From contig CP136490.1 in the NCBI GenBank assembly GCA_032768795.1, positions 5,208,001 through 5,272,000 on the forward strand: a DNA stretch of 64,000 nt. The letters are read 5' to 3'. The DNA comes from Tremella fuciformis. Taxonomy: Eukaryota; Basidiomycota; Tremellomycetes; Tremellales; Tremellaceae. Both the position numbers and the translations under genes were made by a program. Below, piece by piece: positions 17,228 through 54,931 of this stretch. Below the pieces are notes generated by a model. That model did not search any database and was not told the DNA's origin. It was given only the letters and a program-made list of their open reading frames with translations. Each line of letters begins with the position of its first letter. The first letter of the stretch is position 1.

Positions 17228-17930
17228 CTCGAAACTGATATGTCAGTGGATGTACGAAGAAGAGTCCAGCAATACTCACAGATTTGACGGATGGAGGAAA
17301 GCCTTCACGCCCTGGCTCGCAAATCTCGAATGCACCGGCAGCAGCAACCAAGGAGGAGCGGAAAATACCGGCGAGAACCATGAGGGCCCGATGTGGCAGT
17401 CCAGCTACCACCTCTTAAGTCCGAAGCTGGAAGACCGGCGGTTTTTACCGCCGATGCTCCCGAGCTAAATTTAGGCCAATGTGGCACAATTCGAGTGTGG
17501 CATGCCGCACGAATAGGAGAGGGCGACACAGGCCGCCTCGGTTGACAGAGACGAATATCGGCAAGACATACGTTTGAAGGGGCGTCCGCCTCAGTCCTTG
17601 CGCGGTCTCTGATCATAAGGGCTGCATGGAAACATCTTGAACGTATATTCCAGAAAGTATGGTCCCCTAGACAGTCGTTTTTCATTAACGCGGACGCCTC
17701 ATCATGAAGTAAGCCAGTCTTGTTTTGCAGATCACACCTTTGGCATGCAAATGTTCTTCAAGTGCCAATTCTCAAGTCAAATATATCGATGCTAGCCATG
17801 ACAAAGGCAGGACAAAGGAAGCGATGTCAGCATTTGATCAGAATGCCTAGAGCCATAGGCAACCTAAGGACGTCTTGGTCAATCCGATTCTATCTCCTTG
17901 CCCTCAGCAATAGCTGGGTGTCCCACCGAC
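17228..17930. other. Divergent intergenic region, uL23 / orphan family copy 1
   Basis: Promoter side of both neighbours. A 7-bp-arm palindrome lies at 17436-17453. No conserved open frame. The uL23 promoter should lie in the 17.25-17.5 kb part. Confidence 0.45.
17436..17453. promoter_or_regulatory. Inverted repeat CGGCGGT-TTTT-ACCGCCG
   Basis: Perfect 7-base arms around a TTTT loop, about 210 bases upstream of the uL23 start. CGG half-sites in inverted orientation are the usual layout for Zn2Cys6 dimers, so this may be such a site. Unproven. Confidence 0.4.
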
Positions 17931-18719
17931 ATGTCTGATCCTCACTCAGACAGTTATATTATCAGCGCTGCTTTCGAAGGACCACGAGACACGGATCCCG
18001 ATTCAAGTCGCGCCCCTAAGGTGTCTGCTATCATCACCTCTTCCTCCGTTGAGCCGGGACAGATGGAGCGAGGCTCATTGTCGGATCCCAAATATCGCTT
18101 CAAGGCCAAGTGGTCCACCCCTGCAATCGACTCACCGGAGTATGAGAGGGCCGTCAAGGCTCTAGCATTGACCTTGGAGGGAGTCGCTTCCAACCGAGAG
18201 GCGGCTAGAGGTTTATGCGATCAGAAGGACGAGAAGTGGGACTGGGGATGGGAGGCATGCACATGGGTAGACACACTTGTCTCCGTCGCCGAGCAGCTCA
18301 GCGCCCCTCTCAAAGTAAGTATTACTGTCGAAAACCCCCAAGCCCTAAAAGCAATGGGGCTAAAGGTGGGGCACAGGGAGACAGCAGACGAACCCGGCGA
18401 TGCCCAAGCAGCTGGAGCCTGGGCGTCCACGGACATGGTCTCGCAAGCGGTCAAGGAGTGTTCCCGACCTGATCCGTCGCACAAGATCTCTCTTAGGTCA
18501 GAGGACTTGATCATTCCCCCGTCGGAAAACAGCGCGGGGCCTGAAGAAGAGGGAGTCTATACAGTCCTTTCCGAGGTCGTGTACGGCTTCGATCCCGCCG
18601 TCCATGTACGCCTTGAACCCGCCGACTTCGACTTGTCTGAGCCCGAATTTAGACCGAGGAGAACCGAACTCTGGGCCCTCATCAGCTGTCTTACACACAT
18701 CGGGTGTTGTAGGCGGTGA
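17931..18719 (+). CDS. Unknown protein, tandem orphan family copy 1
   Basis: Uninterrupted frame of 262 codons from the ATG MSDPHSDS. I do not recognise the family. It is a clear paralog of the gene at 19.6-20.3 kb. Shared landmarks: an N-terminal AIITSSSVEP, a helical middle (ALALTLEGVASNREAARGL), the core WEACTWVDTLVSVAEQLSAP followed by a beta-like LKVSITVEN, then QAAGAWASTDMVSQAVKE, and a C-terminal VVYGFDP with VRLEPADFDLSEPEF. There is no signal peptide, transmembrane segment or catalytic motif. The stop TGA overlaps a good donor-like sequence (GCGGTGAGT), so the gene may splice into a further exon downstream. The absence of introns is unusual among the neighbours. Confidence 0.6.
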   Translation: MSDPHSDSYIISAAFEGPRDTDPDSSRAPKVSAIITSSSVEPGQMERGSLSDPKYRFKAKWSTPAIDSPEYERAVKALALTLEGVASNREAARGLCDQKDEKWDWGWEACTWVDTLVSVAEQLSAPLKVSITVENPQALKAMGLKVGHRETADEPGDAQAAGAWASTDMVSQAVKECSRPDPSHKISLRSEDLIIPPSENSAGPEEEGVYTVLSEVVYGFDPAVHVRLEPADFDLSEPEFRPRRTELWALISCLTHIGCCRR

Positions 18720-19605
18720 GTCTCGATTTCGGGAAATTCCTGGTATTCTGGACCATTTCATATCTTCTCGTGTTTCCTGCCGCCCTACCTTACCCAGCAC
18801 AGGTCTTTAATGCCTGCATATGTATTTAGTTTCCGCACTTTTGGTTCCCGCTCAACACTGAATCCCGGCTCTGGGGTGATCAGCGCTCCCACTGCACCGG
18901 ACCTCGATTGTCATTGACCGGACGTTCAGGACGTTAGCTCTTGCGTGGAGCCTATGGTAGCCCGGTTCCCGATCCCGTTGCGCCAGATATAGTCAAGCAA
19001 TTCCTAGAAGGTCCGGACACACTGAGACAGCTGCAAGTGGAGGTCCGAGTCACGAATGTGTGTATCGCTTCCTCTGAGTTAGGGACATGAGGGACTGACC
19101 AAAACATACACATGAGAGTCACGAGCTCGCTGTCTGCGCCGTTCCACTCGCTCGTGTGGGGTGCACGGACCCCAGTTAACCAAAGCCCGCCTCATAGCGA
19201 GATCCGGCGGCTACCAATCGGGTGTTTGGTGAATCCTGAAATGTCGAATAGTTCACTTGTCGACACAAAGGTGCTCCAACCCGTGTGGAGATATCTTGCC
19301 CTACTGTTAGCAAGATTTGTTTCACGCAATCGAAGCAATCGAGACCTGGTTTGCGAAGCTTGACGCCCAGGTCTCCCAGATTGGCGATGAGCACCGTTTG
19401 TCAATTGCGGGGACGGCCAGTAACTTCAATACACACCGTGCCAGCTCTGCGGGGATCTGTTGACAGCACAGCAGAATGGAAGATGGGACTATTTGCAATG
19501 TCGGCTGTTAAATTTCCTGCGCGCGCTCGAGTTGGGTTTCACGGCCTGGGGCTGCTATGACCTCTGTTCAGTTCACCTTGTCAATTGGTCATCGATACAC
19601 ACACG
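18720..19605. other. Inter-paralog region with two coding-like fragments
   Basis: Between the two orphan-family copies. Two short open segments look coding: about 18954-19061 (PVAPDIVKQFLEGPDTLRQL, then QVEVRVTN) and about 19321-19464 (HAIEAIETWFAKLDAQVSQI). The first faintly resembles the family core (LSAPLKVSITVEN). They may be exons of copy 1, or relics of a third copy. No complete gene can be assembled by eye. Confidence 0.3.
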
Positions 19606-20292
19606 ATGGCGGCCCGATTCGGCTACACGTCGCAGAGCACTGGTGTGCCGCGCTCAGAATCGCTTGAAGGGCACGTTGAAGACGGATGTGTGCTTGGTAT
19701 CATCACGGCCGCCAACGTTGTTCCTGCTTTGCATTCGCCGTCTTCATGGAAAGAGCTTCTATACACTTGCCGAAGCGATTGGTTCGCCTCCTACTCTCGC
19801 GAGGGGGACAAACGCAAGGGAGCCACGGCACTCAGCACGATAGTGCATAGAGTCACTTTGCATCGACAAGCGGCGGCGCGGAGAGCGGAGTCCCTACAAG
19901 AGCACTGGTCTGCAGCGTGGGAGTCATGCTCTTGGCTCGACACTCTGGTCAATGTCTCCAAGATACTCAGCGAGCGCTTAAAGATCGACTTGATCGTGAA
20001 GGATCAAACCTTTTTGAGAGACAGCATCATTCAACACTCCCGAGCACAGCACGATACAGGAAGACCAGGGGCATCTCAGGAGGCTGGTCAGTGGGCCACC
20101 GACCAGTTGATCAATCGCGCCATAAATGATGAAACCTTTGCAGACAGTCTGCCGCAGCAAGCGAGTGTTTCTCTTGAACTCCTATTTCTGGGCTCAGACA
20201 CTTGGGATGTGGGCGACCAGCCCTTCGACGGCTTCAAGCATTCTCTGTACTTTTCCTACGGCTACGACAGGCATCTTACCGAAGATAGATGA
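19606..20292 (+). CDS. Unknown protein, tandem orphan family copy 2, probably frameshifted at its 3' end
   Basis: Frame of 228 codons from MAARFGYTSQ to TGA. It aligns along its length with copy 1: LGIITAANVVPA, then STIVHRVTLHRQAAARRAES, core WESCSWLDTLVNVSKILSER with LKIDLIVKDQ, QEAGQWATDQLINRAIND, and FSYGYD. Just after YGYD the frame closes within seven codons, yet the next frame continues with PKIDEVALEDACDLSLP, which matches VRLEPADFDLSEP of copy 1, and runs to a TGA at 20426-20428. One extra base near 20265-20290, a sequencing error or a missed tiny intron would explain it. Unknown function; intron-free like copy 1. Confidence 0.55.
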   Translation: MAARFGYTSQSTGVPRSESLEGHVEDGCVLGIITAANVVPALHSPSSWKELLYTCRSDWFASYSREGDKRKGATALSTIVHRVTLHRQAAARRAESLQEHWSAAWESCSWLDTLVNVSKILSERLKIDLIVKDQTFLRDSIIQHSRAQHDTGRPGASQEAGQWATDQLINRAINDETFADSLPQQASVSLELLFLGSDTWDVGDQPFDGFKHSLYFSYGYDRHLTEDR

Positions 20293-22423: not shown

Positions 22424-25125
22424 ATGACGACCGCTCCAGGTGATCGAAGGCTGAACTCTCAGGTTGAAGCAAATTTCAACTTGGCCAGAGGGACGTATGA
22501 GGTAAGGTAGCATGGAACCCAACACACCCCGGGCTGATGCAGCAGAGAAACAGAGACACAGCACCTGCCAAGCTCTCCCAAGATCAGCTGATCAGTCGGG
22601 CAAAGACGCTCAAAGAGTATCCCAGACACCCGTTGGAAGGCAAGAAGAGGCTGCCATACCAATTCGTGCCGTCTTACCTGCCCGGTCACACCTACAGCTC
22701 TACGACGAGCTGGAGAGACTTGACACCCATATCTGCTGAAGAATTGGAGTGCCCAAAAAGACACAATGGTCAGCTTGTGCGCCCAGTCACGCCCGTATAG
22801 CTGACCATCAGGACGGGTTCTCTTCTGTCGGATCCTCACCAAGCCAGTCATCATGATGGGTGTCACCTTGTAAGCATCGGTCTATCGATGCTGTGGTATT
22901 GCAATTGATTCGGGAAGTGCGACCGAGGACCCAGCGGGTCTGACGGTCAATGTAACTATCCAGCAGGTGACGCCTCACCTTATCAGCAAGCTCCCTGAAT
23001 CGGTGATCGAGACGATCTACGCACCTGGTACAATGCTCGCCATCAAAGAGCCGACCATGAAGTTTGTTCTGAAAGGACCGCCCGCCGTCAGGGTCGAGGT
23101 GGTGTCCGACGTTGAGCGGATCCATCCTCTTTGCCCAGATTTACCCCAGCTTCACTGGGCTTACAAACCCGTCGTGGGCGTTTCCCGTGAGGCAGATGTG
23201 CTGCTCTTGATCGTCAGAAAGCCGATTTGCGGACCGCCGTGCAGATCAAGGAGTCAGGAAATAAGGCTGTTGCCAAAAGTCAGTACCTGGTGAGAGACTT
23301 GATCTTGCCGCAGTGGCCATGCTCATGTGCGTAGCTGGCCGTGCATGAGTACTCATACGCACTCACATGCCCCCCTGAACAGCTCGACGACAAGCTGAGA
23401 TTCATCCTCCTCAGCAACCGCGCGCTAGCAAATGTCAAACTCGGACGTCCTGCTTCGGCCTATCGCGACTGTCTGGATGCTGAGGAGCTAGCAGACAAGG
23501 CTGAAGCTACCAAGGACCAATACACGCGCCTCGGTTGGAGGAAAGCCCTAGCTGCCTATGACCTGCGCCTATGGGAGACAGCCAAAGAGTACACGATGAA
23601 GTCACTGGAGGCTGGAGTCGTCGAAGCTCGACCGATGCTTGACAAGATCGCCAATAGACTGGCGGAGCAAGTCTTGGGTCATACCGCTTACGATTGGAAG
23701 TCGATGTTTGTCGATTACACTTCTGGTAGCATCCTCGATGTCGCCGACTACTGGGGACCAATTGAGGTGAGGGGCAGTACGGTACGGCAAGTGCAAGGCG
23801 TCTTCCTGAAGGCCGACGTCAAGGCGGGTGACCTGCTTTTCGTGGAGACAGCCTTCATGCATGCCGCACCTTCAGAGATTCGCAAGACCTCGTTGAACCA
23901 ATTCGACTTTTCGACGGGACATGCGGCTCGGGGCACACAAGTACTGGCTATACATAAGACGGTACACCGCCTGATCGACGCCCCGGGAGATATCGTCATG
24001 CTCCGTGCCGCCCAAAACGCGAAAGCTTCGCCGGATGCTTCGTTGCGTTTCAGCGAGGAAGAACGGCTCGCCATGGCGACTCAAAGAGACCCGGTCAACA
24101 TCGACCTGTCGGAAATACAAGAGATCAGCGAGATGTCCCACCACATGCACCCGCTTGCTCCCAACGGCTACGACCCGAACGCCTCAACCGACGATGAGGA
24201 GGCGAGACAGACGAGCCTCTTCCCCCTGGGCTCATCCATGTGTCACCAGTGCATGCCAAATGTCTATGTGTCTGTGTGGGGCAATGTGAGTTACCAGGCG
24301 ATTAGTCCTTTCCCAGAGCACACGATGACAAGGCTGACGAGCGAAAGGTCATGATCGTGCGTGCCCTGCACGACTTGCCAAAGGACTCCGAATTGTTCTC
24401 CTGTGCGACATCCGGCGCTGCAGCATATGACGAGCGCACTGTCCGATTGTCATTGCGAGGCATTGTCTGCCGATGCGATCTTTGCGTCGCCGATGCCTCC
24501 GAGGATCACCGAAAACGGGCTCAGATTCTCGAGACCGAGTTGCCCACAATGTTTGCCAAGCTCACTCATATCTCAGCAATGTACCCGTTGGGGGGGGGCG
24601 GTCAGGCGCGAGTCACTGCCTTGCGCGAGGCTAAGAGGTTGCTGAGCCGCGTCGAGCAGACATACACTCCAGGGAGGCGCATGCGGCCAGATTTACATAG
24701 CATACATCGTCTTCTGTCAGAGTTACAGATGAGAGACAATCCCAGTCAAGCTATCGAGGTTCGTGGACCCGTCATATCAGTTGTGAGCCTGCTGACTCCA
24801 AGCACGAAATCAAAGCCTTCGAGTCCGAAGGTGGTGTCCGGGCGACTCCGACGGAACGCAAGCAAACAGGCAGGACGATGAAACAGATCGGCCCAGATCG
24901 CGACGCAGCGTGTATCGTCATGATTCAGCTGGCGACTGTCTTGCACAGCGTTGGCGTAAGTCGAATATCTCACCAACCAGTGTAGCTGATTTGCAGAGAT
25001 CCGAGGAAGCCGCGGCATGGCTGAGAACGGCTCACTGGACCCACGACATAAGCATGGCAGGCGGTGCTTGGTTGTTCAAGCGACGTTTCGGTCAGTTCAT
25101 CCCTGGGGGCATCAAGTGGCAGTAA
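22424..25125 (+). CDS. TPR-SET domain protein, copy 1, with degenerate SET motifs (likely pseudoenzyme)
   Basis: Member of the fungal TPR-SET (SMYD-like) protein family. The ATG at 22424 gives MTTAPGDRRLNSQVEANF. Order: a helical N-terminus; a beta-rich domain (GRVLFCRILTKPVIMMGVTF, then APGTMLAIKEPTMKF); three TPR-like repeats with VHEYSYALTCPPEQLDD, LLSNRALANVKLGRPASAYR and WRKALAAYDLRLWETAKEY; the split SET domain starting GPIEVRGS. The SET motifs are damaged: the usual G-x-G-R-G is VRQVQGVF, NHSCxPN is CHQCMPN, and the catalytic Tyr segment is LFSCATSG. The post-SET CRCDLC cysteines remain. It ends GGIKWQ. About seven introns. Its neighbour downstream is an intact paralog, so methyltransferase activity here is doubtful; a binding or scaffold role is inference. 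Confidence 0.82.
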
Positions 25126-25524: not shown

Positions 25525-28334
25525 ATGCCCCGACGCGGTCGTACGTCTGCTCGAAAAAACACTCGTCGCCATGACACTGCTGAACCGGATGACGACGACA
25601 GCTTCGACTTCGGGTTGTTTCAAATGATGTTCATGATGGCGGCTATACAGCGCGACCTTGAAGGGTCGTCCGAAAGTGACAACATGCAGAGGCTGTTGCA
25701 TCAAGCCGAAATTGCCAGAGAGCGATGGATTGTGCGCTGAAGACCGCTGAGAGGATGGTGGCTGATGAGAAGCTCAACGTGTCGTCTTTGCCCAAAAGAC
25801 TGACTGGGTGGCAGCTTCATGGCCGGACCCGAATCCTCCTGGAGGACGCAACGATGGCGGAGGACATGGAGCAGATGGACAAGTCCAACATGTTGCATTA
25901 CTCTCAGATCGCCCTCGGTCTGCCCACCCATTGCTCCACAACGGAGTGGGATAGGCTCGAAGCTGTCGGCATCAGCCAGCTCGAGTGTCCCAGATATCAT
26001 GGAGGTGTGCCCAAAGCGTCCAATTCTCAGGGATAAGCGCAGCTGATCGCCTAGGCAAGGTCCTCATCGGTCGCATTCTCACGAGTCCGGCACGCGGCGC
26101 TGGAGTCACCTTGTAAGCTGTACAGCAAACCCGTCAAAGGATTTTCACTGAGAACAAGCGCCGTTGAAGATCCAGCGGGTTTGGCGATCCATGTGACGAT
26201 CATGCATCCCACCAACGGACCGACGCGATTGACACCCAAGGAGACGTTCGACGCGATTTACCCTGTCGGCGGGGTGATTGCTATTCGCGAGCCGGACGTC
26301 AGATTCGTGCAGAATGGGGGTGTTGGTATTCGTGTCGAGATCCCGAGCGACGTGGTCCGTGTGCACGCGTCCGACAAACGTATCCGCACTCTTACATGGA
26401 AGTTCGCCTCTCCCGTAAGCTCTTGGGTCGAATCTTGATTTGGTGGGCTTACGGAGCAGACTCAAGATGCGAGAAAGGCCATCGACCTCAAAGAATCCGG
26501 CAACCGATACATGGCCAAAGGTCAATATTGGGTACGTTGTCCTGGACCAAATCTCCGTCTGTAAAGGCACTTACGCACAGCTCGCGGTGCACGAGTATAC
26601 ATACGCGCTCGCATTTCCGGAAGACCAACTCGACTCGTTGCTGCTCTATACTCTATATGCGAATCGCGCCATGGCCAATCTCAAAAGCGAGAGGCCTGGA
26701 GCGGCGTACCGCGACTGCCTTCAAGCGGAAACCCTCGGCAGCGAGATCTCAACGAGTGCTGACCAGAAAAAGAAGATCGCCTGGCGCAAAGCCGCAGCTG
26801 CGTACGCTATGCGTGTGTGGCAGCATGCCCACGACCTAGCTCGAGTCGCAGTCGACCTCGGTGTCGATTCAGCCACTACACTGGTCAAGTCTTCCGCTTC
26901 CCGACTCCGAGAGCAGACGGGACAATTTGACTGGGAGGCAATCTTCAAATCGTATGGTGCGAAGCAGAAACTCGATCTTGCCGACTACAATGGCCCCATC
27001 GAGGTGCGCGACAGTCCCGGAAGGGGTCGAGGCGTCTTCCTTACAGCCGATGTAAGGGCAGGGGACCTGCTTCTGGTGGAGAAAGCTCTAGTCCATGCGG
27101 GGAAAGAGGATCTGGGTAGTGTCTTCTACACGCAGATCAACTTCGCGACAAATCACGCCGACTCGGGCACGCATGTGGTTGCCGGACAAAAGGCTGTGCA
27201 TCAGCTGATGGACAACACGGGACTTCAGCCCGTATGGAACAGTCTATGCGGCGTGGGCAAGCGATCGGAATCCACGCCTTTCGTGTCTGAGGCCGAGCGT
27301 CTCAAAGGTCTCCATTCCATCCCGGATATCGATGTCATGCTGCTGGAAGACGTCTTCACGGCGAACGCGTACGGATTGCCAGAACTAACGGCCAATCTCG
27401 ATCAGATATCAGCCTGCGATAAAGAGGAGAAGCGCTGCACTACGCTCTGGGCCTTGACATCCATTTTCAATCACTCTTGCCTGCCGAACATCTCGCTCCA
27501 GCGTTGGGGAGAAGTGAGTCACATCGCTTCCCGGTCAAGCTCACAGTCAGTTTGCCGTCGTGCGTGCTCGTAGCGACATGCTTGCCGGTACAGAGCTCTT
27601 TTCATGCTACTTCCCAGCGGACCTTACCCTCGCTGATCGCCGCGACCGTTCTCAGAAATGGAAGTTTGTATGCGATTGCAAGCTGTGCATCGACGACGTT
27701 TGCGACAATCAACAAGTCCGCGAACACCTCATCAAAGAGGTTCTGCCCAAAGTTGTCAGTCAGAGCAACAGCGTGCTGCGACGCGCAAATCCAAGCCTCA
27801 TCTGGAAGGCCGAGAAGCGAGATGCCCTCCAAGCGGCCGAAGCCCTCCTCGCGAATATCGAAGTGACTTCTGCACCGGACAGGTCGATCAATCCCCACCT
27901 GTTTCCCCTCTATCGGGTGCTCTCGGATCATTACTCTCACTCAGATCTGCGCAAGGCTATCAAGGCGAGTTCCTCGCATGGGGGATGCCGACAGACTGAC
28001 CAGTTTAGGCCGACATCAAGTCTCTCGAATGTGCGGGCACCGTCATGGCTTCTTCGGACCAGCGCAAGGAGCACGGCCGGACCATTCATGAGCTTGGGTC
28101 GACCCAAGATTGTGTCCTCGTGAGGAGCATGATAAACCTCGCGGAGCTTCACAAGGAGAACAGCGTACGTGCATTGACATCTGCCGCACCCAAGCTGACT
28201 CGCAGGACCGAGCGGAAGCCACCGCCTGGCTGAAGACTGCCTGCTGGGCGCATCAAGTCTTGGTTGGTGGCGGTCCCGCCCTTTTCCACATGCGATACAA
28301 ACAAGCCATGCCCAAGGGCATCGCGTATAAGTAA
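25525..28334 (+). CDS. TPR-SET domain protein, copy 2, with intact SET motifs
   Basis: Tandem paralog of the upstream gene with the same layout. Beta-rich N-terminal domain: GKVLIGRILTSP, DPAGLAIHVTI, YPVGGVIAIREPDVRF. TPR block: LAVHEYTYALAFPEDQLD, YANRAMANLKSERPGAAYRD, WRKAAAAYAMRVWQHA. SET domain: GPIEVRDSPGRGRGVFLTAD, SIFNHSCLPNISL, ELFSCYFPAD, then post-SET CDCKLC. All SAM and lysine-binding motifs are therefore present, so this copy should be a working protein lysine methyltransferase; its substrate is unknown. It ends MPKGIAYK. The 5' end is uncertain: an ATG at 25525 opens 71 codons (MPRRGRTSARKN), while the conserved part is in another frame from an ATG at 25725. A missed intron or a frameshift would join them; if not, the start is 25725. 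Confidence 0.83.
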
Positions 28335-40536: not shown

Positions 40537-42532
40537 TCAATAGGCCGCAGCGTCGACGCAGAGTCGCACATAATCCTGGACCTGTTCGTTGAGCGCGAGG
40601 TGCAAGTCATGCTGCATGTCCGGGGGACATGCCTTGCGCGTCAGCAGGAGCCGCTACAGCTATAGAAGATGCTTACCTGCATGTCATGCAAGAGTCCAAG
40701 GGCATCCGTGTGGGCACACAAGTCGACCATCTGGCCGACTTTGTAATCGTGTTGCGGGTCACAGGGAACGGTATGAGCCGGAGGGTTTGAGCCGCTTCCC
40801 TGGGCAGGTCGCGGCTTCCCCCCGTTGTTGTTCTGAGCGCTGGGCTGGACTTGTACTTCATGCTCGTGCGCATTACCGTTGTTCCCGGTCGGGTCCTGGT
40901 ATATGAGCTTCTCTCATGGCTGGGGATCAAATTCCGTAAGAGCGAAAAACACTCACCGATGTGACTTGGACGTAAGGTGAGGCTGATGGCGAAGCCTGTG
41001 CCGAGGCCGAGGCCGACACCGACGAAGCTTGGCTCGGCTTTGTCACGGCAGAAGCCGAAGGGCTCGCACTGGCCTTGGATGCTGAAGATGACGCCGCCGC
41101 AAGTGGTGAGGCTGAAGCCGAGGCAGCCGCCGAGGCTGATTTGGACGGGGCAGCAGAAGAGGCCGGTATCGAAACCTTCTGGCTCACAATCGGTACCGAC
41201 GCTGCAATGTGCTCGTCAGGTCCGATCGTCACCTTGACAGGCACTGCGAGGTGCATGACCTTTTCGACGTCCGCTGCGAGGTCGTCAGAATTGGCAACCG
41301 CCGGCCCCAGTGGAGACTTGGAGACCGTTGCGCCGCCCTGTTTCATCGGGGCAGCAACGACCGGTGACCCGATAGCGGCGCTATCTGCCTGCTTGACTTG
41401 TTTTCCTCCGGGAGTTCCTTGACCTCCTGAGGCGCCAGTGTTTCCGGCTGGGGTGGGAAGCTGGACCTTTACGTTGCTTTTCGGCGAAGACGTGTCGACC
41501 GTCCCGATCTCCGTGTCCTTGCCCGGTGTTTCTACGACGTGTGCACCCTTGTTGTCTTGGGTAACAGAGACGATGCCATCGTGGCCTGGACCTGACGTGC
41601 CGGGCAGAAGGTTGACAGTGATGGCTCGATGGACATTCACTTCGGTCGGCCCCTTATGGCCAACCTCAGCAGGCTGTCCAAATTTGAATTCGCTGGCCTT
41701 GACACTGTTGCCCGTGCTCTGTAAATGAGCCATTTCGCAAGCAATCCGACCGTGTGGCAGCTCACTTTGTCGTGCGGATCGTTCAAGATCACCGTAGACC
41801 CGGTGCTTTGATTCTGGACCTTGGGTCTATTGGCATCAACCGGCTGGTCGTGAGCGTCAGAACACCTCATTCGCGTCAACATACGCCGTCGTGATGCTTG
41901 TCGGCGACATCCACTTTCTCCACGCTCTCCCCCTGCTGCTTCCTGCCATGGTGAATTCCAACCTTGATGTTTTCGTCGTCGCTCTTGATCGTTTCGCCCG
42001 GCTTGGTAAAGGCGTTGCCCTGGGTTTGCGGGACATGCGAGCGGTACTTTTCGTGTTTGGCCAGAGCAGCCTCGGACTCCCCGACCAGCATCCCCGGTAT
42101 CACAACGCTGCCTTTCCTATGATGGACCTTGTTCTCCTCATAGGGTCGACCAAATTTGGCGATGTCATCGAGAGGCTGGGATCCAGCGTGCGCGTCAGTT
42201 TCGGCTTGGTATCCTTTCGATCTCGGCTGAGCCCGCCCATGCGTAGTGTGATTTTCGTGCTCTTTGACGTCCGGCAGGACGCCCTTGGCCCTGCCATGAT
42301 GATGGCTGCCGCCACGATGATGACCGTCCTTGTGATGCTCCTTACGAGAATGAATGTGCTGGAGGTCGACCGAGTCGCGCGTCCCATGGTGCTTGCCGCC
42401 AGAATTGTGGTGCCTACCTAGGCCCTTGTCGGACGAGCGGTGCGGGTTTGGACCGGGGTTCGCGATGGGCGCACCGATGGCCGATGTGGCGAGAAGCGCG
42501 AGAATGGCGAATTGGCTAGAGGAAGTACGCAT
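40537..42532 (-). CDS. Secreted His-rich, Ser/Ala-rich protein of unknown function
   Basis: The start at 42532 gives a clean signal peptide (MRTSSSQFAILALLATSAIG, cleavage near APIANPG). The first 200 residues are extremely rich in His, Lys and Gly (HHNSGGKHHG, HHKDGHHRGGSHHHGR), suggesting metal binding. Two short introns near 41722-41882 lead to a segment with NQSTGSTVIL and AITVNLLPGTSGPGHDG, then a tract built of Ser-Ala repeats (SASAAASASAS) typical of heavily O-glycosylated wall proteins. Two 3' exons add a Asn/Gly/Pro linker and a compact C-terminus, DPQHDYKVGQMVDLCAHTDA and ALNEQVQDYVRLCVDAAAY, with a few Cys. I do not recognise the family. No GPI signal is visible. Cell-wall or extracellular location is inferred. 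Confidence 0.7.
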
Positions 42533-42990
42533 TATGAATCTTGTATTCAGCTGAGAGTGTGGGTCAGAGCGAGGCGTCAGACTGGTCGGCTTGAGCGATG
42601 TTGCGTAAGTTAAGGAGCGTGAGATCGGTCGCAGGCTGCTATTGTCGAGCTGTTGATCGGGTCGGGATGGTCAGTCAGGTGAGGGCTGATGAGTGCGGAG
42701 AATGCGCATCAGCAAGCTTTATGTCAGAGGCGATAAGGCCGTTGCGCTTCGCTGCTGAGTTCCTTTTGGACGCTGTCGGCGACAATGTCCAGCCAAGCGA
42801 ACAGCGTCCATGAGCTGAGCACCGACTCGGGCTGCGACAGCTTCTTTGGGTCTAGTTCCGGACAAGATGCATGAAGTGTCTCACTTCATGTCGTCAGATG
42901 CGGGATTGCTGCTCGCTTTCGGATCATGGACACGTGAGCTGACAACGAATACAGAAGCCCGGAAAGGCGAATCTTGAATATGCGAATGAT
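42533..42990. other. Intergenic
   Basis: Promoter and leader of the secreted protein and 3' flank of TRM10. No gene seen. Confidence 0.5.
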
Positions 42991-50583: not shown

Positions 50584-53500
50584 TCAGGCAAAGGGACTGA
50601 AGCCGGTCGGATCCAATGGCTCACCGAGAGGGGGAAACGGGAACCACAAGTCCATAAACGAGTCGGGGTCGGTGATCTCGCCTGTCACTCCGGGTAGTTC
50701 GGACGGCTATGCTTCAGCAATGTGTCACAGTGTCACTGCGCTCTGGGCTCACAAAAGTCAGCGTCTCGGACGGTCCGGCAGGTCTACCTGAGTTGCTGAA
50801 CAGCTGATCGGCATAGGTGAAGTCAAAGTTGGAAGTGATGGCATCCAGGTCGTTGAAGTTGAAATCAGACGCGCTGATTGGTCCTGCGGCTGTGGCTTCC
50901 GCGGTCATTTGTGGCAAAGTAGGATTGAGATCGGTGGACGGCAGTACCGTATTCTCTTTGACGGGCGATGGGGCTTTTGACAAAGGCGGAAGAATTCGAT
51001 TGCTTCGGGCGCGTTGAAGGACGTCTCGGAGCATGGTAGCCACTTGGAAGCTTGGCACTGACGGTTCAGCGACTACATTGGATAGATGGACGGAGTCACC
51101 TTCTTCTGTCAAGCGCAGAGACACCCTATCAACGTCTCGACTGACTTGGCGCACGTCAAGAACTTCGGGAAGGAGATTAGCCATACGAATCAGAAGTCTG
51201 GCAGCGAAGGCGGCGCCGACATCTAAGGATTAGTTTGCGTTCATGCTCTGGCGTTCACACGTACGGGTATAGATATTTGCTGTTCTCATCAGCTTCGTCT
51301 TACCTCAAATGTCAATGCAACTCACCCCACTTGAAGTTGTCGTTGTAATCCCCGCCGCGCAAACAGATTGATAGTATCTTTTCGGCAGCACGTATGGCAA
51401 TGATCAAGAATTCTTTGCGCTGATCACTCATTCTCGCGATGTCAAACTTGTTTCGCACGCCGTAGAGGATGCGCGAATTCGTGTACATGCTTTTTCTTCA
51501 GACGAGAGCGGCCACAAATAGGACAGGCTCACAACGCACCAGCCCGGCCTGTCACCAGATTTTCCCGCAGTAAATCTGTGGGCGGGATGCCCCGATCGCC
51601 TTGCTCCTCAGAATTGGCTCGCTCGACAATATGAGTACCCACGGAGATACTGGTCCCAATATGTGAACCATTGATTGGTCAGCACTCGAGCTTGCATGAG
51701 CTTCTCATCGAGGTCTGGCAAAGCCAGTGAAGGAGGCAGTATCGAGAATGGCTGATACAGTCCAGCTAAAGGGTTGTCAGTGGTGACATATCCACGCCTG
51801 GTCGAACCTACTGCGGAAGGTAAAGAGCTCCACCGATGATGATAGGCGAGCATCGGCGGGTATTGAGAGGGGATGCTCCAAAAACTGTCGAGCATAACGA
51901 ATAGTGATCTCCCCGGTGATGAACGCGGGTCGTCCGAAATTGAAAGCCATCCTGTCCGTAAGACGGTTATACGAGACACAATGCAACTTGCTCGAGATCC
52001 ATTCGGAACAGCTGAGATGCTCAGCTAGGCCGTGTCCAAGCCCAAGAAGTGACGTACCTGCAGCCACACTCGAGCGCCTACGACCATTGGATAATCCGCT
52101 CTGATCTGGTCCACGGGTTTGTTTTGTCCCATACCGCTTTGAGCGAGATAAGGTAGACAACGGTAAAGACCCATGTCCATGGCTATCCGTAAAGCATGGC
52201 CTGGGATTTTGAGCTCTAGCGGGGCTGAGAGCGAGGCGCTATTTACCGCCAGGACGCCAGCTCGTATCTCCCCACGATGCCATGATGATCATGGCTTGTA
52301 CGATCTCGATCCGCGCTATCGGCGTAAAGAGGGTTGTCATCCCTGAGGTATGAGCATTCCGGCCCAAAAAACAAAGGCAACCCACCAATCTTCTCTGCAT
52401 GCTCCCGACATTTTCTCTGTAGCTCGCTTTCTTGTTTTGCAGCATCTTCCACTTTCGCGCCGACATACAAGATGGCAGTGATGCAGAAGGAAGATCGCTC
52501 GCAGAGACTGCTGTGAGTACATGCTGGCGATCTCATTCCTGACTTTACCTTTCCCAGGTATCGACCTCGGGGTCGAAAATGGGAATAAACATGAGGCAAT
52601 GGTCGATGAAACTAACGACTCAGCAATTTATGCCATGACCGGGAGCGTGCTAACGATTTGTACAGCTGCCTACCCTTTTCCTCAGTACACCAGCCCAGCT
52701 CCACAGGATTTTTGAAGTTCTTGCGGTAGGTACTTGAGCCATTCGCCAACGAGCTCTTGTTCAAGCTGCCGTCGGCAGCCGTGCCAACTTGCTTCTTCTG
52801 CCGCTTTGAGGATCCGAGCGGTGCTGTGGATGGGTATATCTTTTCCTCTACCTTGCGTTTCCCCGTGCGGGCAACTTCGGCATATCTCTCCACCGGCTCC
52901 TCAGGGTGCCCATCCGCCTTCAAACGTGCTGCTTCGGCGAGAGACAGCATGTTGTCCCATGGGGCATTCCCAGTAGAAGGATTGAGGGGATCTTTGTCCT
53001 CGTCGTCTTCTTCCTCGCGAATAGGACCACCGGGCTTTGGCGGTGTCGGTGGTCGTGCCCACGGGCGCTGCTCCAGAATCTTCTCCTTGTTTACGGGAGG
53101 GCGTTGGGTGGCAGGTGCTGGACCGCTACCAGGGTCGAAGAGCGAATCCATGCTGAGCAAAGTCCCGGGAGTGCTCTGAGCCGCCGGCGGTGTATACTGG
53201 AAAGAGATGGCTGTGAGATCAGCAAAGTCGCTGATCCGACAGCAGGATAGCCTACGGTCGGGGGGAACACGGTGAAGGGGACTGAGGCCCGTCGTCAAGG
53301 CCGGACCACCAACGGTGGCCCCGCGTTGCAGCCTGATCAGTTCCTCCATGGTGCTCTGAAGCGCACCCATCTGCGCTTCAACCACCTTGAGTCGGCTACC
53401 GAATCAGCTGCATATACAGTGGGTGAGTAGCGTACGCACTCCTCGACCTTCGATCCTTTGGTCTTTCTCGGTCCATCAAATGTGCAGATATGACCGGATT

Positions 53501-53752
53501 GGCGGCACCGGTTGCAAGGGGGATTCTCTTTGCCGATGCATTTCATTTTCATCCGATGACAGAAATCCTGACCCCATCAGCGACGAGACCTACAAGGGGT
53601 GAACCAGGATTGATCGAGCAGAACTGACACATGCGCCTGCGAATTTCGTCAGCTTGGAAAGGTCAATCCGAGCGCAAAGGCCAGAACATACGGTTAGCCT
53701 GTTTGCGACGAGACTCCTCATCGTCGCCATCAGCAGAAGAGCGGTCGCTCAT
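50584..53752 (-). CDS. Zn2Cys6 fungal transcription factor
   Basis: The start at 53752 gives MSDRSSADGDDEESRRKQAN. An intron and then a second one of 67 nt bring together the zinc cluster RACDFCHRMKMKCIGKENPP with CNRCRQSGHICTFD, i.e. C-x2-C-x6-C-x7-C-x2-C-x6-C, the exact fungal spacing. A coiled-coil dimer element follows (RLKVVEAQMGALQSTMEEL). After a Pro/Asp-rich linker comes the fungal-specific regulatory domain, with GLPLFFGPECSYLRDDNPL, AFNFGRPAFITGEI and ARVLTNQWFTYWDQYLRG. The last exon encodes an acidic, aromatic end (DPDSFMDLWFPFPPLGEPLD), like an activation region. More than eight introns. Its targets are unknown; it lies next to the repeat-peptide gene in the same orientation. Confidence 0.9.
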
Positions 53753-54307: not shown

Positions 54308-54931
54308 TCACTGGTCCAAGGCAAGCTCTTCTCGCTTCCAGCCCTTTGCGCCAGTGCCCCATCCGCCCCATCGCTGAGAGCCGACATCGTCGCTCGTACT
54401 GATAGCTTCGACGTCGGCCGCAACACCATTGTCGCCATCGTCGCGCCTCCAACCCTTGGCACCCGACCCCCAACCGGACCATTCTCCAGAGCCGGTCTCG
54501 TCCCGCTTCCAGCCCTTTGCGCCAGTCCCCCATCCGCCCCATTGCTGTGAGCCGACGCTGTCGTCGGTGGCCGTAGGCTCGACGTCGACGGAGCGGACCT
54601 CGTGATCATCGCGTTTCCAACCCTTGGCCCCCGAACCCCATCCCGACCATTCCCCAGAGCCTGTATCATCGCGCTTCCAGCCCTTTGCACCAGTGCCCCA
54701 TCCTCCCCAAAGCTCAGAACCAAGCTTGTCGGCCGCAACGACCACATTTGCCTTGTTGCTGTCGGTGGCTGCGAAGTTGTCCCGCTTCCACCCCTTGGCG
54801 CCGCTGCCCCATCCCGACCATTCGGCAGCGCCGGTACCGTCGTCAGCGACAGGTGCGGCGATAGGCGCCGCTTGCGCAAGCAAGGGAAGTAGGAAGACGA
54901 GGGCGACGAGATTTTTCACGGTGAGAGACAT
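54308..54931 (-). CDS. Secreted repeat-peptide precursor with Kex2-type sites (KEP-like)
   Basis: Intron-free frame of 207 residues. Residues 1-22 form a signal peptide (MSLTVKNLVALVFLLPLLAQ, cleavage near AA-PIAAP). Six copies of W-[SG]-G-W-G-[ST]-G-A-K-G-W follow, at residues 38, 75, 95, 131, 151 and 188, each directly ending in KR (RR in the fifth). Two versions alternate strictly: SGWGS (copies 1, 3, 5) and GGWGT (copies 2, 4, 6). Spacers are acidic (DDTGSGE, VDVEPTATDDSVGSQ). There is no Cys and no membrane anchor. Dibasic sites after every repeat are the hallmark of Kex2 cleavage in the Golgi, as in alpha-factor-type pheromones, dikaritin RiPPs and Rep1-like proteins. I infer release of short Trp/Gly peptides. 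The biological role is unknown; I know no described family with this repeat. Confidence 0.85.
   Translation of the reverse strand: MSLTVKNLVALVFLLPLLAQAAPIAAPVADDGTGAAEWSGWGSGAKGWKRDNFAATDSNKANVVVAADKLGSELWGGWGTGAKGWKRDDTGSGEWSGWGSGAKGWKRDDHEVRSVDVEPTATDDSVGSQQWGGWGTGAKGWKRDETGSGEWSGWGSGAKGWRRDDGDNGVAADVEAISTSDDVGSQRWGGWGTGAKGWKREELALDQ
54332..54820 (-). repeat. Six tandem-dispersed copies of the 39-nt peptide unit
   Basis: Coding repeats of the secreted precursor. Five of the six copies fall in a higher-order pattern: two units 20 codons apart, then a spacer of about 36 codons, repeated. This implies duplication of a two-peptide block. Confidence 0.85.

Follow-up and report, generated by a model that had tools for sequence, protein, structure and literature searches.

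The window analysed here, a stretch of 64,000 nucleotides of Tremella fuciformis DNA, carries on its reverse strand a gene, P1, that encodes six copies of a Trp- and Gly-rich motif behind a signal-like start. Its features are as follows.

54308..54931, reverse strand: P1 precursor coding sequence, 207 aa in a single-exon reading, with the ATG at 54931 and the stop at 54308
54869..54931, reverse strand: signal-peptide-like N-terminus, residues 1-21 (MSLTVKNLVALVFLLPLLAQA), hydropathy maximum 3.1, with cleavage presumed at AQA/A
54845..54868, reverse strand: APIAAPVA, residues 22-29, four in-phase X-P/X-A dipeptides past the presumed signal cleavage, by sequence a candidate for Ste13-type trimming
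54782..54820, reverse strand: copy 1, type A, WSGWGSGAKGW and KR
54671..54709, reverse strand: copy 2, type B, WGGWGTGAKGW and KR, preceded by a long spacer
54611..54649, reverse strand: copy 3, type A, WSGWGSGAKGW and KR
54503..54541, reverse strand: copy 4, type B, WGGWGTGAKGW and KR, preceded by a long spacer
54443..54481, reverse strand: copy 5, type A, WSGWGSGAKGW and RR
54332..54370, reverse strand: copy 6, type B, WGGWGTGAKGW and KR, preceded by a long spacer and followed by the tail EELALDQ and the stop

The copies of W[SG]GWG[ST]GAKGW (n = 6) begin at residues 38, 75, 95, 131, 151, and 188; the fifth has RR directly behind it and the others have KR. All six dibasic pairs past residue 21 stand immediately behind AKGW. 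When this part of the protein was shuffled 100,000 times, 10 shuffles contained two GW[KR]R and none contained three or more; in a separate run, 14 contained at least two. The N-terminus is hydrophobic, with an 11-residue Kyte-Doolittle maximum of 3.1 vs 0.95 in the rest of the protein, and this signal-like stretch, together with the AxA site at AQA/A, predicts secretion. These results bear out the initial annotation, which had described a secreted precursor with a signal-like start and six such copies, each followed at once by KR or RR. Two types of copy alternate: type A has a short lead and would give peptides of 18-19 aa, and type B has a long lead and would give 34-35 aa. A tandem unit of 168 nt spans 54333-54709 (Tandem Repeats Finder; 2.2 copies, 81% matches). 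The peptides that follow KR/RR begin with DN, DD, DD, DE, and DD, and only the first peptide, behind the signal, has APIAAPVA. The short peptides are acidic at the N-terminus and have one Lys, so that they are not cationic. When the window was roughly scanned for frames that combine a signal-like start with three or more dibasic pairs, two were found, and only P1 has GW repeats.

Upstream of P1, we read a gene as SUMO-like; its 42-aa piece had no Pfam match. Just downstream, on the same strand, a Zn2Cys6 match (53337-53552, reverse strand; 19.2 bits, below the 21-bit cut-off) could mark a regulator. Elsewhere in the window, adjoining paralogous frames lie on the forward strand at 23335-24354 and 26419-27573 (40% identity over 322 aa), the latter with a SET match of 22.6 bits (cut-off 22.4), and also at 17868-18719 and 19561-20292 (27% identity over 152 aa, E 5e-19, no Pfam match). 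A His/Lys-rich frame on the reverse strand (40927-42670) begins like a secretion signal (MRTSSSQFAILALLATSAIGAPIANP) and adjoins a second frame, with no Pfam match.

P1 has relatives in the same genome, and the family numbers at least three genes. A protein search of the organism's own genome (28.1 Mb, 11 contigs) with P1 returned P1 itself and a paralog, P2 (E 1e-4), and the same search with P2 returned no gene other than these two up to E = 10. The third gene, P3, was missed by both protein searches, and introns within cores could conceal further members. The two paralogs, flanked by CwfJ-like and CLASP-like frames, are located at the following positions.

C1:5645773-5646318, forward strand: P2, which shares its contig with P1 at a distance of ~383 kb
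C1:5641858-5641578, reverse strand: P3, head-to-head with P2

At the DNA level, the pattern GWGxGxxGWKR, which leaves out the P1 copy ending in RR, had 10 matches in the 28.1 Mb, five in P1 and five in P2, and none in the reversed control. The pattern ANGWxGG had eight, namely, five in P2, one in P3, and two that were rejected (C1:1933253 and C1:4656926), which lack both a signal-like start and a matching dibasic site after the motif; the reversed control also gave two. A small secreted ORF ending in KKQGWSSG (L015:1955-2101, forward strand; C1:5637955 on) lies ~3.5 kb from P3 and was not accepted as a family member. The precursor proposed in the initial annotation thus stands as described for P1, with an extension, as both paralogs and the alternation of A and B copies had been missed.

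Read with a 48-nt GT..AG intron inferred from the DNA, P2 has 165 aa and six GWGGGANGW cores, five of them followed by KR; with this splicing, the sixth core closes the protein (...NGWGGGANGW-stop). In P3, a signal-like N-terminus is followed by a single RR and a single peptide, DQTASANGWHGGANGW, that runs up to the stop; its 62-nt intron, a GT..AG reading of the same kind, lies within the peptide, and the C-terminus becomes ...NGWHGGANGW-stop. The two introns share their phase and are placed 17 nt (P2) and 14 nt (P3) ahead of the coding sequence's end, so that their sites differ by 3 nt. As P2 and P3 both end at the Trp that precedes KR in the repeats, this Trp is the likely end of the mature peptides.

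From the presumed signal end or KR to the SG of the next peptide, the spacers of P2 consist only of X-A/X-P dipeptides: A or P occupies the second position in 24/24 dipeptides vs the first position in 9/24, with the SG boundary picked after the sequence was seen. Without any chosen boundary, the in-phase XA/XP runs also amount to 24 dipeptides, a value reached by 0/100,000 shuffles, although these shuffles overstate the evidence because the spacers are near-copies of each other. The leads of 6, 8, 8, 8, 8, and 10 residues each leave a 15-mer. By their sequence, we identify these runs as the STE13 signature of alpha-factor-like precursors. In P1, the signature is lacking between the KR/RR and the cores.

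The cores appear to be held at the protein level. Nei-Gojobori counts on the core and dibasic codons gave a pN of 0.00 (0/90.2) vs a pS of 0.34 (9.0/26.8) among the type B cores of P1, 0.077 (7/91) vs 0.65 (17/26) among the type A cores, 0.11 vs 0.72 between A and B cores, and 0.014 (5/350) vs 0.37 (37/100) among the cores of P2. In the type A core, one Ser is unchanged despite a switch between AGC and TCG codons. For the B spacers, pN was 0.42 (62.2/148.2) and pS 0.59 (27.8/46.8), counts that are rough because these spacers were aligned with gaps. The A spacers, of which two copies were compared, show conservation similar to that of the cores (pN 0.063, 1/16). These contrasts are patterns rather than formal tests, as copies within one gene are not independent, and the copies within a gene may be partly homogenised; the patterns suggest that the P1 cores are constrained while the B spacers drift.

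Precursors of this kind form a published class, the KEX2-processed repeat proteins (KEPs), named in PMC6339444 (Le Marquer 2019). A survey counted 7878 KEPs in 1345/1461 strains, 2560 of them stand-alone (PMC7329392, Umemura 2020), and KEPs were examined by peptidomics in PMC9769878. P1 has six near-identical repeats bounded by KR or RR, where at least three bounded by KR/RR/KK define a KEP, and its N-terminal secretion signal is indicated by hydropathy and the AxA site. It also carries two motif types in one precursor, a layout reported for 77/1193 KEPs (PMC6339444). By architecture, P1 is a KEP, and release of its peptides by Kex2 is predicted. P2 goes further, as its 24/24 dipeptides place it in the alpha-pheromone-like subtype, to which P1 does not conform beyond its first copy. 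Such alpha-pheromone-like KEPs were described in basidiomycetes between 2019 and 2022 (PMC6339444, PMC7329392, PMC9769878), and they share with P2 the KR sites, the XA/XP dipeptides, and a core with a final W. Their cores differ from that of P2, and behind the KR/RR of P1 there are no STE13 spacers. The STE13-signature KEPs of basidiomycetes include one of Trichosporon oleaginosus, QSWGGCGGRGTPCW (PMC6339444). Its likeness to the T. fuciformis peptides compared, attractive by eye, has a score that 34-68% of shuffles reached. A search for a T. oleaginosus-like precursor with the pattern PCW-K[R] gave nine matches, the same number as the reversed control, and one of them, at C1:5643847 between P3 and P2, was ascribed to chance. 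Peptides with a C-terminal Trp have been detected by mass spectrometry in mushrooms, including MSGVAADW and SGVAADW from fruiting bodies of Pleurotus, and QYKAPSW was detected on expression in Pichia; the authors state that the role of such peptides in basidiomycetes calls for more study (PMC9769878). The initial annotation had offered P1 as a candidate new peptide system; given this published work on KEPs and basidiomycete alpha-pheromone-like KEPs, novelty in kind is not supported.

The sequences themselves appear to be new within this known class. In a database of 5.8 billion proteins, P1 had words in common with 791 candidates, none of which scored at E <= 0.001, and an alignment of P1 and P2 had no match at E <= 10 among the 8000 candidates scored. 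As a control, an exon of the neighbouring SIN3 gene was searched: of 8000 candidates scored, 739 reached E <= 0.001, the best ten at 65-69% identity. Among the matches listed, the one with a named organism was from Rhizoctonia (56% identity), which, together with STE3 loci and no STE2 match, suggests a basidiomycete. The comparison with known proteins proposed in the initial annotation thus left P1 without a database match, which is weak evidence for novelty because the database contains fungi but probably no close relative. Six pieces of the core sequence were not found in a text search of 5.39 million papers; the listed matches obtained through the short string 'ggangw' were to unrelated papers. 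A search limited to the main texts of the three KEP papers (PMC6339444, PMC7329392, PMC9769878) did not find GAKGW, GGANGW, or GWGGG either.

The genome encodes the families expected for such processing. A Kex2-type P-domain locus is located at C3:1059270, the Ste13 family (DPPIV_N) has one locus at C4:1310733, and S10 carboxypeptidases, the Kex1 family, gave 14 matches grouped as four loci; by family, the S10 and DPPIV_N loci are candidates for the Kex1 and Ste13 roles. With these genes, the paralogs, and the constrained cores between drifting long spacers, the reading of P1 as a dibasic-bounded peptide precursor, already made in the initial annotation, is supported.

Signal peptidase would take off about residues 1-21 of P1, Kex2 would cut behind each KR/RR, and a Kex1-type carboxypeptidase would trim the basic pair from the peptides. 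We regard this series of cleavages as very probable. Three short products would result, DDGTGAAEWSGWGSGAKGW (if the AP/IA/AP/VA lead is trimmed), DDTGSGEWSGWGSGAKGW, and DETGSGEWSGWGSGAKGW, along with three long products of 34-35 aa with the C-terminus WGGWGTGAKGW and a 7-aa tail. In P2, a Ste13-type dipeptidase would remove the spacers and leave 15-mers, SGASANGWGGGANGW or, from the first two copies, variants that begin SGATPDGW and SGATANGW, and P3 would give its one peptide. The predicted [M+H]+ values are 1839.757, 1853.772, and 1894.799 for the short P1 peptides (2585.205 with the AP/IA lead retained), 3592.745, 3629.616, and 3536.558 for the long ones, 1348.566, 1362.582, and 1389.582 for the trimmed P2 peptides, and 1628.684 for that of P3. 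All six P1 peptides would have a free ...GAKGW end and would most likely be linear and unmodified; for the linear form, our confidence is good. The most likely use of the peptides would be as an extracellular signal of the fungus that is not its mating pheromone, although we rate a signalling role at slightly less than an even chance, and nothing in the analysis points to a receptor. Taken as a whole, the reading we lean towards is that P1 is a secreted KEP that yields linear peptides, which maybe serve as an extracellular, non-mating signal.

The main rival to signalling is that the peptides are released in the same way and aimed at other organisms, as antimicrobial or host-directed agents rather than self-signals. 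Short Trp-rich peptides are often membrane-active. Against this, the short peptides of P1, with their acidic N-terminus and single Lys, are not cationic, and the cores are conserved within and between genes, whereas arms-race peptides usually diversify. In its favour, and as a point against the signalling reading, the knockout of six KEP genes in Coprinopsis gave no visible phenotype in axenic culture, and the authors suggest a role in interactions with the biotic environment (PMC9769878). We consider action on other organisms unlikely, if well worth keeping in view.

A second possibility is that P1 stays intact, or is cut only in part, as a wall or surface protein with structural repeats, in the manner of Rep1 of Ustilago maydis. 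Gly/Trp repeats in a secreted fungal protein would suit such a role, and Rep1 is itself a basidiomycete KEP that, like P1, lacks the STE13 signature; its peptides assemble into amyloid-like fibrils (PMC9769878) and govern the properties of the hyphal wall (PMC6339444). The Rep1 peptides are 37 aa long and attached to hyphae (PMC6339444), whereas three of the six P1 peptides have 18-19 aa and the other three 34-35 aa, a comparison made by description. In contrast to the repeat peptides of Rep1, P3 has a single, C-terminal core, and P2 ends exactly at a core, so that a repeat array is dispensable. The in-phase trimming dipeptides in P2 and the drift of the long spacers in P1 also argue against a structural repeat, and we find this role quite improbable.

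The layout of P2 raises the question of a sexual pheromone of the alpha type. It shares with ascomycete alpha-factor the KR sites, dipeptides of the EA/AP type, and a repeated core, a likeness of layout. However, STE2, the receptor of alpha-factor, had no match in the genome, a weak absence because the family had no match in any control genome either; STE3, found by the same method, had four matches grouped as two loci. STE3 at two loci offers the usual prenyl-pheromone channel for mating, and it would be surprising if P1-P3 were an alpha-type mating signal. They are not prenylated pheromones of the basidiomycete kind, as P1 ends in EELALDQ rather than a CAAX box and none of P1-P3 has a Cys.

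Equally hard to credit is a dikaritin-type RiPP, with cores cyclised after release, even though dikaritins share the KEP layout (PMC7329392). The initial annotation had allowed for cyclised peptides; UstYa (DUF3328) had no match in the genome, again weakly informative as no control genome matched, and neither UstYa nor any other modification enzyme was found among the 30 Pfam-scanned frames, which are part of those present and of which ten lie at least 11 kb from P1. P1, P2, and P3 contain no Tyr or Cys and thus no ring-linked Tyr core of the dikaritin type, a Trp-based link being still conceivable.

Homology to Qsp1 of Cryptococcus neoformans (NFGAPGGAYPW), with import by an OPT transporter, is scarcely probable. 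Qsp1 is likewise short, secreted, and Gly-rich with a final Trp, and the P3 core NGWHGGANGW shares with it N, GGA, and the final W. The alignment scores were reached by 17-30% of shuffled Qsp1 sequences for the P2 and P3 peptides and by 52-73% for P1, with one peptide of each gene compared, and are thus not significant; the maturation of Qsp1, by Pqp1, takes place outside the cell (PMC7537855). The view of the initial annotation that the repeat does not match sequences such as Qsp1 holds as far as it was compared, with Qsp1 and with the protein database. OPT transporters gave 16 matches in the genome, grouped as four loci, and one gene (C1:5665355-5667491, reverse strand) lies ~19 kb from P2. 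By simple arithmetic, four loci in 28.1 Mb would place an OPT gene within 20 kb of a given place with a chance of ~0.6%; the proximity is a lead only, as it was noticed after several families had been searched.

Returning to the preferred reading of P1 as a secreted KEP with linear peptides, one could imagine that P1, P2, and P3 form a single family of secreted linear signals with a C-terminal Trp, whose GAKGW and GGANGW types are divergent ligands of a non-mating channel that has a dedicated receptor or importer, for which the OPT near P2 is a possible candidate. We put this forward tentatively, as a doubtful extension of the reading. Because one member of this small gene family has a single copy, the probable C-terminus of the mature peptides is pinned down, and exact masses as well as synthetic peptides follow from it, so that the question becomes testable in one organism.
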